From: Exiguobacterium acetylicum DSM 20416 | Lineage (GTDB): Bacteria > Bacillota > Bacilli > Exiguobacteriales > Exiguobacteriaceae | DNA length: 64,000 bases | Direction: 5' to 3' | Assembly: GCF_000702605.1 (NCBI RefSeq) | Contig: NZ_JNIR01000001.1 | Coordinates: 2,346,501 to 2,410,500 of the forward strand | Part shown: positions 11,661-64,000 of the stretch, piece by piece | How the letters are laid out: each line of letters begins with the position of its first letter | How positions within the stretch are numbered: position 1 is the first letter of the stretch | Translations under genes and position numbers: made by a program | The notes under the pieces: generated by a model | What the model was told of the DNA's origin: nothing | The model's database searches: none | The model's input: the letters and a program-made list of their open reading frames with translations, nothing else

Positions 11661-12965
11661 TTAAAGTTTTGTTGCAGCTGTTTCTTCAACGACTGCTACT
11701 TCTTCAGTCACACGTTCTACGTCTGCACCAAGTGCTTGTAACTTCAAGTGGAAGTCGACGTATCCACGGTCGATGTGGTGAAGTGCACCAACGCGTGTTT
11801 CGCCTTCAGCGATCAACCCTGCTGTGACGAGTGCTGCCCCTGAACGAAGGTCCGTTGAAAGAACTTCTGCGCCTTGCAACTGTACGCCACCGTTGATGAT
11901 CGATGAACGACCTTCAATCTTGATGTCAGCGTTCATACGACGGAATTCTTCAACGTGCATGAAACGGTTCTCGAAGACTGTTTCCGTGATGACCGATGTG
12001 CCGCCTGCTTTGAGGACGAGTGCCATCATTTGTGCTTGAACGTCTGTCGGGAAACCAGGGTGTGGCATCGTCTTGACGTCAACTGCTTCAAGTTTTGCTG
12101 GACCGACGACACGGAGACCTTCTTCCGTATCCGTGATCTTAACGCCCATCTCTTCCATCTTCGAGATGAGTGGACGAAGGTGTTCGCGCTCAGCGCCGAT
12201 GACTTCGACATCACCTTCAGTGATCGCTGCTGCGATCATGAACGTACCTGCTTCGATCCGGTCAGGAATGACGTAGTGTGTTGCACCGTGTAATTTCTCG
12301 ACGCCTTCGATGCGGATCGTTTCTGTACCTGCACCGCGGACTTTTGCGCCCATTGCGTTCAAGAAGTTAGCAAGGTCAACGATTTCTGGTTCTTTTGCGA
12401 CGTTCTCGATGACTGTCGTTCCTTCTGCGAGTGTCGCAGCCATCATAATGTTCTCTGTCGCACCGACTGATGGGAAGTCAAGATAGATTTTTGCACCTTG
12501 GAGACGACCGTCGACTTGTGCCTCAACAAATCCGTTTCCGATGATCGTTTTTGCGCCCATTGCTTCGAATCCTTTCAAGTGAAGGTCGATTGGACGTGAA
12601 CCGATCGCACAACCACCTGGCATTGCAACACGTGCGCGACCGAGGCGTGCGAGTAATGGACCCATGACGAGAATCGAAGCCCGCATTTTACGAACGTACT
12701 CAAGTGGTGCCTCATCTTTGAGGTCCGGCTCAGCATTGACCGTCACCGTGTTTGCTTCTGCATCGAACTCGACTTCTGCGTTCAAGTTGCGTAAGACGTT
12801 ATTGATTGTATAGACGTCTGCTAGACGTGGTACGTTTTGAAGAACCGATTGTCCCTCCGATGCAAGCAATGTCGCGACAAGTGTTTTTAAGACCGCGTTC
12901 TTTGCACCTTCTACTTTGACTGTTCCAGCTAATTTACGTCCGCCACGGACAACGATTTTTTCCAT
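11661..12965 (-). CDS. murA: UDP-N-acetylglucosamine 1-carboxyvinyltransferase MurA (primary copy)
   Basis: This enzyme transfers enolpyruvate from PEP to UDP-GlcNAc, the first committed step of peptidoglycan synthesis, in the cytoplasm. The 434-residue protein has the substrate-binding EGAKNAVLK near residue 20, the catalytic loop [18 protein letters not shown] with its active-site Cys (target of fosfomycin), and the catalytic Asp in [12 protein letters not shown]. The start [11 protein letters not shown] at 12965 is chosen over an upstream extension because aggag precedes it. The position near atpC and mbl corresponds to murAA of B. subtilis. Compare the second, cysteine-less paralogue at the right edge. 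Confidence 0.95.
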
Positions 12966-58327: not shown

Positions 58328-59701
<1,374 letters not shown>

Positions 59702-60055
59702 GTTCTTCACCTATTCTTTATAAATTCAACTGCATTCAGCATACTTCCATACATACAGCAGGAGGTATGTAATTTTATTCGTGAACTAAAGGTATCATAT
59801 TTTTTTTGATTCGTCGTCAACAATCCTTTGCGTTTCTTACTTTGTAATATTCAAAGATATTATTTCAGTTATGTTACAAAAACATCTGTTTTGTCTTCTA
59901 ACTGAAAAAACGTTTTCAAGTGTGCTCGTGCTAAGATATTCCTGCAGACAAAATTCTTACACAGTTGTAAGGTAGACTGCTTAATCACACACTTAATGAT
60001 TTCATCATATAACTTACGGACGCAACACACTACATTAAACGGAGGAATTCTTAAC
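59702..60055. other. Intergenic region between rho and the NlpC/P60 gene
   Basis: About 350 bases with no gene, AT-rich. I see a small inverted repeat CTTACA-cagt-TGTAAG at 59956-59971 and a cre-like GAAAAAACGTTTTCA near 59903-59917. The promoters of rho (minus) and the NlpC gene (plus) must be here, but I cannot assign boxes firmly. Confidence 0.5.
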
Positions 60056-60733
60056 ATGAAACGTTTTCTAGCATCGATCGCGACGGCAGCCTTAGTGGTT
60101 TCAGGTTTTACATCAGTGGGTACAGGTAAAGTTGAAGCAGCGACAGTCACGAAAGTCAAGATCACGGACAACGGTCTTCGTGTTCGGACAGCACCTTCTA
60201 CGAAAGCAAGCATCGTCGGGAAAGTCAACGCTGGTCAAGTCTTTACATACAAAGGCAAATCAGGCAGCTGGACAAAAATCTCATACGGCGGTAAAACACG
60301 CTATGTCTACTCACAGTACACAAAGACATACAAATCATCTTCTAGCGCTAAAAAATCAACGAGCTCTTCTTCTAAACGGACGAAAATCCTGAGCGAAGCA
60401 GCAAAACATAAAGGTACACCTTATGTATGGGGCGGAACGACGACTCGTGGATTCGACTGCTCTGGTTTCACAAGCTACGTGTACAAGAAAGCGGCTGGTA
60501 AAACATTGCCACGTACGTCTTCTTCACAATATTCTTCTTCTAAGAAAGTCAGTGTTTCAAAAGTACAACCAGGAGATCTTGTCTTCTTCTCACACGGTAG
60601 CGGCATTCAGCACGTTGGGATCGCAACAAGCAAGTCAAGCATGGTCAACTCAGAAACAGGTGGCGTTAAATACTCAAGCTTCAAATCAGGGTACTGGGGT
60701 TCACGCCTTGTCGGCGCAGGATCTTACCTATAA
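60056..60733 (+). CDS. Secreted NlpC/P60 peptidoglycan hydrolase with SH3 domain
   Basis: The 225-residue precursor has a signal peptide (MKRFLASIATAALVVSGF, cleavage after VEA, about residue 29), a bacterial SH3 domain (DNGLRVRTAPSTKASIVGKV, residues about 35-95), a Ser/Lys linker, and an NlpC/P60 domain (about 105-225). The catalytic Cys is in GFDCSGFTSYVY, the His in GIQHVGIA and the polar residue near NSETGG. It should cut peptide stems in the wall, probably D-Glu-to-diamino-acid bonds. The start follows ggaggaattcttaac. Confidence 0.9.
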   Translation: MKRFLASIATAALVVSGFTSVGTGKVEAATVTKVKITDNGLRVRTAPSTKASIVGKVNAGQVFTYKGKSGSWTKISYGGKTRYVYSQYTKTYKSSSSAKKSTSSSSKRTKILSEAAKHKGTPYVWGGTTTRGFDCSGFTSYVYKKAAGKTLPRTSSSQYSSSKKVSVSKVQPGDLVFFSHGSGIQHVGIATSKSSMVNSETGGVKYSSFKSGYWGSRLVGAGSYL

Positions 60734-60744
60734 TTCATCATCTC

Positions 60745-60778
60745 AAAGCGGTTGAGCATTGGCTCGATCGCTTTTTTT
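60745..60778 (+). terminator. Terminator of the NlpC/P60 gene
   Basis: AAAGCGGTTGAGC pairs with GCTCGATCGCTTT (G-U and one mismatch), followed by a T run. Confidence 0.85.
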
Positions 60779-60804
60779 CATCTCATTCATAAGGAGGAAA
60801 TAGG

Positions 60805-61572
60805 ATGCATGTCTTAATCACAGGTGCTTCAAGAGGTCTTGGTCGTGAATTCGCTTATCTGCATGCACGACAAGGGGATCACGTCCTGCTCGTCGGACGC
60901 GATGCGACAGCACTCTTCGAAACGAAGTTCCATGTCGAGCGACTCGGTGGAACGGCAACCGTCTTTCCGTATGACTTAACGAAGCGGACGCATCGTCTTG
61001 CACTGTTTCGGGCAACGGAACACATTCCGGTCGACTGCGTCATCAACAATGCTGGAATCGGCGTCTTCGGTTCCTTCCTTGAGACCTCGTTTGAAGACGA
61101 GTCTCGAATGATTGCTTTGAACATCGAAGCATTAACACACGTAACGAAGGTCTATGCCTCTCGCATGAAAGAACAGGGAATCAAAGGACGGATCGTCCAT
61201 CTCGCTTCAACGGCTGCATTTGAAGGTGGTCCATGGCTGAGTGTCTACTACGCGACGAAAGCCTACGTCCTTCATTTCTCGGAAGGATTAACGGAAGAGC
61301 TTGCAGCAGACGGGATTCAAGTCAGCGTCGTCTGTCCGGGCGCGACACATACCGGTTTCGAATCAGCAGCAAACCTTGAACAATCTCGGCTGTTCTTGCG
61401 ACCGGGAGTCATGGATGCTCCGACGGTTGCGCGTATTGCCTACCGCGGCTATATGAAGGGGAAAACGTTCATCGTTCCTGGCTTCGGGAATGCCTGGTAT
61501 ATCTTTTCGACACGTTTTCTACCGCGTCGGTACGTCACCCGACAAGCAGGAGAAGTCCAGCGTCCGCGGTGA
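60805..61572 (+). CDS. Short-chain dehydrogenase/reductase
   Basis: The 255-residue enzyme has the cofactor motif TGASRGLGREFA at residues 6-17, the NNAGIG segment near residue 80, the catalytic Ser in HLASTAAFEGG and the YxxxK pair in YYATKAYVLHFSEGL near residue 149. Absence of an acidic residue after the second strand and Arg in VGRDA hint at NADPH. The substrate is unknown. aaggaggaaatagg precedes the start. RNA element copy C begins 32 bases after its stop. Confidence 0.87.
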   Translation: MHVLITGASRGLGREFAYLHARQGDHVLLVGRDATALFETKFHVERLGGTATVFPYDLTKRTHRLALFRATEHIPVDCVINNAGIGVFGSFLETSFEDESRMIALNIEALTHVTKVYASRMKEQGIKGRIVHLASTAAFEGGPWLSVYYATKAYVLHFSEGLTEELAADGIQVSVVCPGATHTGFESAANLEQSRLFLRPGVMDAPTVARIAYRGYMKGKTFIVPGFGNAWYIFSTRFLPRRYVTRQAGEVQRPR

Positions 61573-61850: not shown

Positions 61851-62816
61851 TTACTTAATGACAAGCTTCGGTTTCTTCTTGAACGAGTGGATACCCTCGA
61901 CAAAGCGAACCGTTCCAGATTTCGCGCGCATGACGACAGAGTGTGTCTGACCGCCTTGCGCCGTGAACTGAACACCTTTCATCAATTCACTGTCCGTGAC
62001 GCCTGTCGCAGCAAAGATACAGTCATCTCCGGCAACGAGGTCGTCCATCATGAGGATCTTCGATGGATCTTCAATGCCCATCTTCTTGCACCGCTCGACT
62101 TCTGCCTCGTCTGCTGGTAACAAGCGTCCTTGGAGCTCACCACCGAGACATTTCAAGGCAACGGCAGCAAGAACGCCTTCCGGTGCACCACCTGAACCGA
62201 GTAAGATATCGATCCCTGTGTGCGGGAATGCCGTATTGATCGCAGCAGCGACGTCACCGTCACCAATCAAGCGAATCCGCGCCCCTGTTGCCCGAATTCG
62301 TTGAATGATCTCTTCATGACGTTCACGATCAAGGATCGAGACGACGACGTCTTCGATTTCCTTGTTCTTCGCCTTCGCGACTGCCGCGATGTTTTCTTCG
62401 ATCGTCGCATCCAGACTGATATGCCCTGCCGCTTCCGGACCGACTGCGATCTTATCCATGTACATATCCGGTGCGTGAAGCAAATCGCCTGCATCCGCGA
62501 CAGCGAGGACAGCAAGTGCGCCCCATGTTCCTTTTGCGACGATGTTCGTTCCTTCAAGCGGATCGACAGCGACGTCGAGTCGTGGTCCATACCCATTTCC
62601 TAGCTTTTCTCCAATGTAAAGCATTGGTGCTTCATCCATCTCGCCTTCCCCGATAACGACGGTTCCTTTCATCGGAATCGTATCGAAGACGTCACGCATT
62701 GCGCTTGTTGCCGCGTCATCCGCTTCATTCTTCAATCCTTTTCCCATCCAACGCGCAGAGGCAAGCGCTGCTGCCTCCGTGACGCGTACAAGTTCCATTG
62801 ATAGACTTCTCTCCAT
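61851..62816 (-). CDS. glpX: Fructose-1,6-bisphosphatase class II (GlpX)
   Basis: The 321-residue gluconeogenic enzyme removes the 1-phosphate of fructose-1,6-bisphosphate. It has the metal-binding [16 protein letters not shown] near residue 56, [11 protein letters not shown] near residue 81 and [16 protein letters not shown] near residue 183, the GlpX signatures. The start follows gagagggga. The rho-glpX-murZ order is as in B. subtilis, except that the NlpC and SDR genes now separate rho and glpX. Confidence 0.94.
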
Positions 62817-62848: not shown

Positions 62849-64000
62849 TCAAATCGTTTCACGCCATACGAGGGCGCCTAGTTCCTTCAACTTCTGATCA
62901 AATCGTTCGTAACTCTGGTCAAGCACTTCTGCGTGGTGCAACGTCGTCTCCCCTGAAGCGAGAAGTCCCGCCAAGACAAGTGCTGCGCCACCGCGTGGGT
63001 CCGGTGCCTCGATTTCCGTACCAAGTAAGGTTTCTCCACCACGAATGATGATTGAGGCGTCTTCATGCGTGATCCGAGCGTTCAAGCGCCGTAGCTCCTG
63101 TACATGTCGGAAACGTTGCGGATACAATTTATCGACGACGATACTCGCTCCTTTTGCTTGCAACAATGCTGCCGAGATGACAGGTTGTAGATCGCTTGGG
63201 AATCCACCGTAGTGGAAGACACGAATATCGACCGGCTTCGCCTCCTGAAACGTCGCCGTGACGGAATCATCCGTTGCTTCGATCAACGCACCGTACCGCT
63301 CGAGTTTTTGGATGACGCTCTCGAGATGAAGCGGAATGACGTTGTCGACGGTGACGCGTCCAAGTGCCGCCCCCATCGTCAAGAATGTCCCTGCTTCCAT
63401 CCGGTCCGGAATCAAGGTATGCCGGCAACCACTTAGTTGCGATACGCCCTTGATTCGAATCTCGTCCGTTCCTGCCCCTTTGACGCTTGCCCCCATGTTC
63501 GTCAACATCGTACTGACGTCGATGACTTCTGGGTCATAGGCAGCATTTTCGATGACAGTGGTTCCTTCAGCGAAGACAGCGACGAGTAACGCACTGATCG
63601 TCGCTCCGAAAGACGGGAGATCGAGGTAAATCCGGTTGCCGACGAGACGATCGACGCGCATGTAATGGACGCCTTGCTCGTTACGTACAGAAACACCGAG
63701 ACGCTCTAGTGCTTTGATGTGTAAATCAATCGGTCGTGGTCCGATGGCATAACCTCCAGGCAGACCGACGACTCCTTGTTTGAATCTGGCTGCCAGAACG
63801 CTCATGAGGTAGATCGATCCGCGTAACTTGCGCGTCTCCGCACCCGTCAACGGCATCGATTCGACCCGACTTGGATCAATCGTCACCATATCGCCTTGAC
63901 GTGTCACGACCGCGCCGAGCGTCTCCAAAATCTCGATCATCGTCGCGACGTCGCCAATCTCCGGCATGCCTTCAAGAACGACCGTCTGATCCGTCAGGAG
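62849..64000 (-). CDS. murZ: MurA paralogue (MurZ/MurAB type) with Cys-to-Tyr at the active site; 5' end outside window
   Basis: The frame is open to the window edge, so the N-terminus is missing; about 383 residues are visible. The protein is an EPSP-synthase-fold MurA: it keeps the Arg of IGPRPIDLHIKALE, the catalytic Asp in GGFPSDLQPVISAALL, and the late Arg in DPRGGAALVLAGLLA. The catalytic loop, however, reads GLPGGYAIGPRP (codon tat on the minus strand) where active MurA has GGC. The position next to glpX is that of B. subtilis murAB. It may be an altered, fosfomycin-insensitive enzyme or a regulatory pseudo-enzyme. Confidence 0.9.
   Translation of the reverse strand, partial: LLTDQTVVLEGMPEIGDVATMIEILETLGAVVTRQGDMVTIDPSRVESMPLTGAETRKLRGSIYLMSVLAARFKQGVVGLPGGYAIGPRPIDLHIKALERLGVSVRNEQGVHYMRVDRLVGNRIYLDLPSFGATISALLVAVFAEGTTVIENAAYDPEVIDVSTMLTNMGASVKGAGTDEIRIKGVSQLSGCRHTLIPDRMEAGTFLTMGAALGRVTVDNVIPLHLESVIQKLERYGALIEATDDSVTATFQEAKPVDIRVFHYGGFPSDLQPVISAALLQAKGASIVVDKLYPQRFRHVQELRRLNARITHEDASIIIRGGETLLGTEIEAPDPRGGAALVLAGLLASGETTLHHAEVLDQSYERFDQKLKELGALVWRETI

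Follow-up and report, generated by a model that had tools for sequence, protein, structure and literature searches.

The secondary UDP-GlcNAc 1-carboxyvinyltransferase of Bacillota, MurAB or MurZ, has been linked to the degradation of the main enzyme, MurA or MurAA. In Listeria, deletion of murZ stabilizes MurA, and this effect is non-additive with that of clpC and lies downstream of ReoM; according to the discoverers, the reason why Bacillota keep a second MurA is open, and the role of MurZ in MurA degradation is "entirely unclear" (PMC7286690). In E. faecalis, MurAB binds IreB, loss of MurAB shields MurAA from proteolysis, and a MurAA-2IreB-MurAB complex has been proposed (PMC12077105). Crosslinking mass spectrometry in B. 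subtilis yielded MurAA-MurAB as a high-scoring paralogue-dimer model (PMC10090944; PDB 9a7b), and the MurA of P. aeruginosa has a regulatory function that is independent of catalysis (PMC9995270). At the active site, Arg397 contacts the phosphonate of fosfomycin along with Lys22 and Arg120, and in E. coli MurA the Cys115Asp enzyme is active and fosfomycin-resistant and the Cys115Glu enzyme is inactive (PMC4790336). In this study, we describe a MurAB with Tyr at the Cys115 position, which we refer to as Tyr-MurAB. Neither Tyr at this position nor a MurA pseudoenzyme was found reported in the open-access papers searched.

Gene, locus and origin

The window is a stretch of 64,000 nucleotides from Exiguobacterium acetylicum DSM 20416. 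Residue numbers are those of E. coli/E. cloacae MurA, transferred by alignment, unless the residues of Tyr-MurAB itself are named. The following features of the window are used below.

11661..12965, minus strand: canonical MurAA, with Cys115, Asn23 and Arg397 (profile, alignment and tree)
58328..59710, minus strand: rho, a member of the conserved order fba-tal-murAB-glpX-rho-tdk (comparison with Bacilli loci)
61851..62816, minus strand: downstream neighbor, a class II fructose-1,6-bisphosphatase gene that we take to be glpX from family knowledge (phmmer homology to Bacilli loci)
62849..64000, minus strand: C-terminal 383 codons of Tyr-MurAB, the murZ/murAB orthologue (frame reading and profile match)
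62915..62917, minus strand: Gln394, at the Arg397 position (Gln or Lys in the genus, Asp or Asn in the sister genus)
62993..62995, minus strand: Arg368, the kept Arg371, which is the "late Arg" of the first-pass annotation (alignment)
63749..63751, minus strand: TAT codon of Tyr116, at the Cys115 position of E. coli/E. cloacae MurA (Tyr in 38 of 38 Exiguobacteriaceae)

The first-pass annotation had placed a second MurA homologue with Tyr (TAT) instead of the catalytic Cys at 62849-64000, beside an intact MurA at 11661-12965, and all three observations are borne out. The protein scores 452 bits on TIGR01072 and thereby passes the MurA family test (curated cut-off, 392.7), the minus-strand frame reads PGGYAIGPRPID in the loop, and the MurA at 11661-12965 has its Cys. 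A further 96 coding bases of Tyr-MurAB, which include the codons for Lys22 and for the Gln at Asn23, lie past the window end; the complete gene (G000:C1:2409352-2410596) starts with GTG, encodes 415 amino acids and contains no internal stops. The top-matching NCBIfam model is NF009470 (MurZ/MurAB, PRK12830), on which the protein reaches 491.7 bits, below the cut-off of 552. Three genes of the genome have the EPSP-synthase fold, namely the canonical MurA of the window, AroA and Tyr-MurAB.

The Tyr-MurAB locus reads fba-tal-murAB-glpX-rho, the same order as in other Bacilli families, and the murAB-glpX order is conserved in Bacilli. Genes for an NlpC/P60-like SH3 protein and a short-chain dehydrogenase occupy window positions 59996-61572 between glpX and rho, unlike in most other Bacilli sampled, where these two genes are nearly adjacent. 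In a quick LG+G4 tree of 94 proteins, the Tyr-MurABs form one group (100) inside the MurAB clade (SH-aLRT 96), a placement in which long-branch effects are possible and for which the locus provides independent evidence. By locus and tree, Tyr-MurAB is shown to be the vertically inherited MurAB/MurZ orthologue of Exiguobacteriaceae; the standard murAB locus and the MurAB clade rule out a recent duplicate or a horizontally acquired copy. The stem branch of the Tyr-MurABs measures 1.2 changes per site compared with 0.24 for MurAA of the same family, which is approximately five times faster.

Conservation and distribution

Each of the 19 Exiguobacterium genomes, which include E. indicum, E. antarcticum and E. 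sibiricum, and each of the 19 genomes of the sister genus has one Tyr-MurAB orthologue with the Tyr kept, and the proteins are 63-100% identical. Exiguobacteriaceae alone represent the order in the genome collection, which thus offers no other family of the order in which intermediate states might occur. The first-pass annotation had proposed that Cys in close relatives would point to a sequencing error or a strain mutation; such a Cys was looked for and was absent. Because Tyr occurs in every relative, in all 38 species of the order that were examined, it is neither an error nor a strain mutation. The median dN/dS is 0.054 for Tyr-MurAB and 0.038 for MurAA (Nei-Gojobori, 65 species pairs), figures that are approximate since many dS values are near saturation. 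Because dN/dS is approximately 0.05, Tyr-MurAB is under strong purifying selection now and shows no decay, and together with the absence of stops this value rules out a pseudogene. The chance that the Tyr reflects a sequencing error, a strain mutation or a decaying pseudogene is accordingly negligible; nothing was found in its favor, and what such a case resembles is illustrated by an isolated Tyr elsewhere in Bacillota.

This isolated case emerged from pattern scans. In 399 Bacilli genomes from 145 genera, a Tyr-loop DNA pattern found the 38 Exiguobacteriaceae and, by chance, one non-MurA protein; thus, no Tyr-loop MurA was found in the 361 other Bacilli genomes. A wider Tyr/Ser/Phe/Leu pattern run against 398 Bacillota genomes returned one further Tyr MurA, in genome G560. 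For the genomes covered, the two scans rule out a widespread Tyr-MurA phenomenon. The G560 protein, from another Bacillota class, is a MurA of the dcw cluster with Cys115Tyr and with Asn23 and Arg397 intact (L170; L171 1644-2897), and relatives in the same genus have Cys (L181, L182), which indicates a lone substitution or an assembly error.

Two other active-site variants were observed. An additional MurA-like paralogue in family f77 (L186, L190, L179, L187, L188, L189) carries Tyr in place of Asn23, Asp in place of Cys115 (PGGDDIGPRP) and FFTDFQ around Asp305; it is a natural variant that perhaps belongs to the MurAC group of PMC9600426. In a Limosilactobacillus MAG, a MurA/MurAB (L068 5001-6257) has Asp where Cys115 is expected, which is the fosfomycin-insensitive type.

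Active-site residues

Residues were compared in an alignment of 18 representative Tyr-MurABs with 73 reference MurAs. All 73 references have Asn23 and Arg397, and position 115 is Cys in 72 and Asp in one. The references have 93 columns with an invariance of 95% or more; the Tyr-MurABs always keep 68 of these, partly keep 10 and have lost 15. The lost columns include Asn23 (Gln), Cys115 (Tyr), Val163 (Phe), the Glu at column 188 (Asp), Leu370 (Pro/Ala), Arg397 (Gln, Lys, Asp or Asn) and Gly398 (Ser). In the full set, Gln at Asn23 and Tyr at Cys115 occur in 38 of 38 Tyr-MurABs, and Arg397 is gone from all 38, with the same four residues in its place. Arg91 and the superfamily core of Lys22, Arg120, Asp305, Arg331, Asp369 and Arg371 are unchanged, as are the UDP-side residues Arg120, Pro121, Asp123, His125, Ser162 and Gly164. 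The first-pass annotation had described the remaining catalytic residues as kept, which is correct for Arg120, Asp305, Arg331, Asp369 and Arg371 and incorrect for Arg397 and Asn23, both of which are Gln. We take Asn23 to stand at the acceptor sugar, and its role and those of Arg91, Asp305 and the UDP contacts are presumed from general knowledge of MurA structures.

Judged by the residues of a competent MurA, Tyr-MurAB has neither Cys or Asp at position 115 nor the pair Asn23 and Arg397, and it does have Lys22, Arg120, Asp305, Arg371 and the UDP contacts. By descent it is a MurAB orthologue, and its residues speak against a competent MurA. Because Asn23, Cys115 and Arg397 are all replaced, Tyr-MurAB is likely to be without UDP-GlcNAc-enolpyruvate synthesis. 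An active, fosfomycin-insensitive MurA, in which Tyr would act as the acid in place of Cys, is a very improbable alternative. The activity and resistance of Cys115Asp enzymes speak for it; however, Glu at position 115 is already inactive (PMC4790336), a MurAA with Cys is retained, and Asn23 is missing together with Arg397, the partner of Lys22 and Arg120 at the fosfomycin phosphonate. The suggestion of altered chemistry with fosfomycin tolerance thus fares poorly, since the residues that hold PEP and fosfomycin were lost together and Cys115Glu is dead in E. coli, and fosfomycin tolerance via Tyr-MurAB is unlikely.

The intact superfamily core counts against a dead enzyme. In the AroA encoded by this genome, Ala stands where MurA has Cys115, Ser where it has Asn23 and Val where it has Arg397, and because AroA lacks these equivalents, their loss is no proof of inactivity for all enolpyruvyl transfer. 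Since the superfamily chemistry needs none of the three residues, a changed transferase that acts on another acceptor is a serious rival, although we consider it rather unlikely. Such a neofunctionalized enzyme would perform an EPSP-synthase-like, Cys-free enolpyruvyl transfer or a related step, with UDP-GlcNAc or another UDP-sugar as acceptor. The retained core and the AroA residues fit this proposal, and Gln23, Tyr116, Phe163, Asp188 and Ser395 are fixed in 18 of 18 representatives, as if constrained. However, position 397 varies among Gln, Lys, Asp and Asn and position 370 between Pro and Ala, unlike catalytically constrained sites; moreover, Cys115Glu kills E. coli MurA (PMC4790336), and the canonical MurAA is always alongside.

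An AlphaFold2 model of Tyr-MurAB (pLDDT 94.8, pTM 0.93) predicts the fold of an intact MurA, with TM scores of 0.97-0.99 to most MurA structures. Among PDB entries, the nearest is 9a7b, an integrative model of MurA2-MurA1, whose MurA2 chain matches Tyr-MurAB with a TM score of 0.99.

Canonical MurAA and the ReoM module

MurAA accompanies Tyr-MurAB across the family, Cys was present in all of the sampled MurAA loci in which it was read, and MurAA is presumed to be the sole UDP-GlcNAc enolpyruvyl transferase of the genome. In one sister-genus genome with 8% contamination (G022:C13:57603-58851), MurAA appears to be split over two frames, probably by an assembly frameshift. The genomic setting expected of a MurZ-type regulator is present alongside: ReoM/IreB was found in 38 of 38 Exiguobacteriaceae genomes, and ReoY and the PASTA kinase in all four genomes in which they were looked for. 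The one ReoM/IreB protein that was read has the Thr7-type motif and the SGDPAY loop. In a comparison of ReoM contacts, the position of Asn197 in Listeria MurA is Thr in Tyr-MurAB, as it is in 20 of 21 other MurABs, so that this residue does not set Tyr-MurAB apart.

Discussion

The explanation that we favor, with about an even chance of being correct, is that Tyr-MurAB is a MurAB without MurA catalysis that has been retained as a pseudoenzyme regulating MurAA. The first-pass annotation had offered an inactive regulator or an altered chemistry with fosfomycin tolerance, and the regulator is the better supported half, which the Asn23 to Gln change and the loss of Arg397 strengthen; the tolerance half finds no support. 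Lacking the acid/nucleophile, the Asn of the acceptor sugar and the Arg of the PEP phosphate, Tyr-MurAB would make no UDP-GlcNAc-enolpyruvate. Most likely, it would bind MurAA directly, via the ReoM/IreB dimer, or both, and help to present MurAA to ClpCP, which would change MurAA turnover. Peptidoglycan precursor flux would thereby track PASTA-kinase signaling, and binding of a UDP-sugar to what is left of the pocket may adjust the control of MurAA. This adaptor role, most likely in our judgment, is carried over by analogy from other genera.

It is doubtful, but worth weighing, that a dead Tyr-MurAB serves a role other than MurAA control, such as a UDP-GlcNAc/UDP-MurNAc buffer or a sensor that acts on another enzyme. 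The retained UDP and diphosphate contacts would suit such a role, and P. aeruginosa MurA regulates a different enzyme (PMC9995270); however, the links already described in Bacilli are those of MurAB with MurAA and with IreB.

If Tyr-MurAB regulates MurAA, the second MurA of a whole bacterial order has become a regulatory subunit of the first that binds UDP-sugar and performs no catalysis, a proposition that we regard as evenly poised, and such a subunit would be a natural separation-of-function form of MurZ. A lineage in which MurZ catalysis has apparently been removed and the protein is strongly selected renders the question of whether the role of MurZ in MurA degradation is non-catalytic directly testable. 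In addition, profile annotation labels Tyr-MurAB an active MurA on the basis of TIGR01072, and fosfomycin targets and peptidoglycan capacity would consequently be misstated family-wide.

Comparison with known systems

EPSP synthase (AroA) shares with Tyr-MurAB the fold and the core residues of the Lys22, Arg120, Asp369 and Arg371 type, and neither has the Cys; however, Tyr-MurAB has the MurA-type UDP-binding motif and shares 26% identity with the genome's own AroA. The natural Cys115Asp MurAs of Mycobacterium, Chlamydia and Borrelia likewise represent a natural change of the fosfomycin-target Cys. Their residue is Asp, and E. coli MurA with this residue is active and insensitive to fosfomycin (PMC4790336), whereas Tyr-MurAB has Tyr, has lost Asn23 and Arg397, and is accompanied by an intact MurAA. 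The P. aeruginosa MurA, an activator of LpxC, demonstrates that regulation by a MurA fold is separable from catalysis (PMC9995270), but it is one protein with two functions and another partner, and Tyr-MurAB is a dedicated paralogue.

Tyr-MurAB resembles the MurAB/MurZ of other Bacillota in locus, tree position, fold and UDP contacts; it differs in its score below the NF009470 cut-off, in the replacement of Asn23, Cys115, Arg397 and Gly398, and in its long stem branch. Listeria MurZ and E. faecalis MurAB are paralogues of the main MurA whose loss stabilizes that enzyme, and ReoM/IreB, ReoY and the PASTA kinase are common to these species and the Exiguobacteriaceae genomes checked. In E. faecalis, MurAB is catalytically active (PMC12077105), whereas the site of Tyr-MurAB is degenerate; therefore, a non-catalytic role is likely the one remaining.
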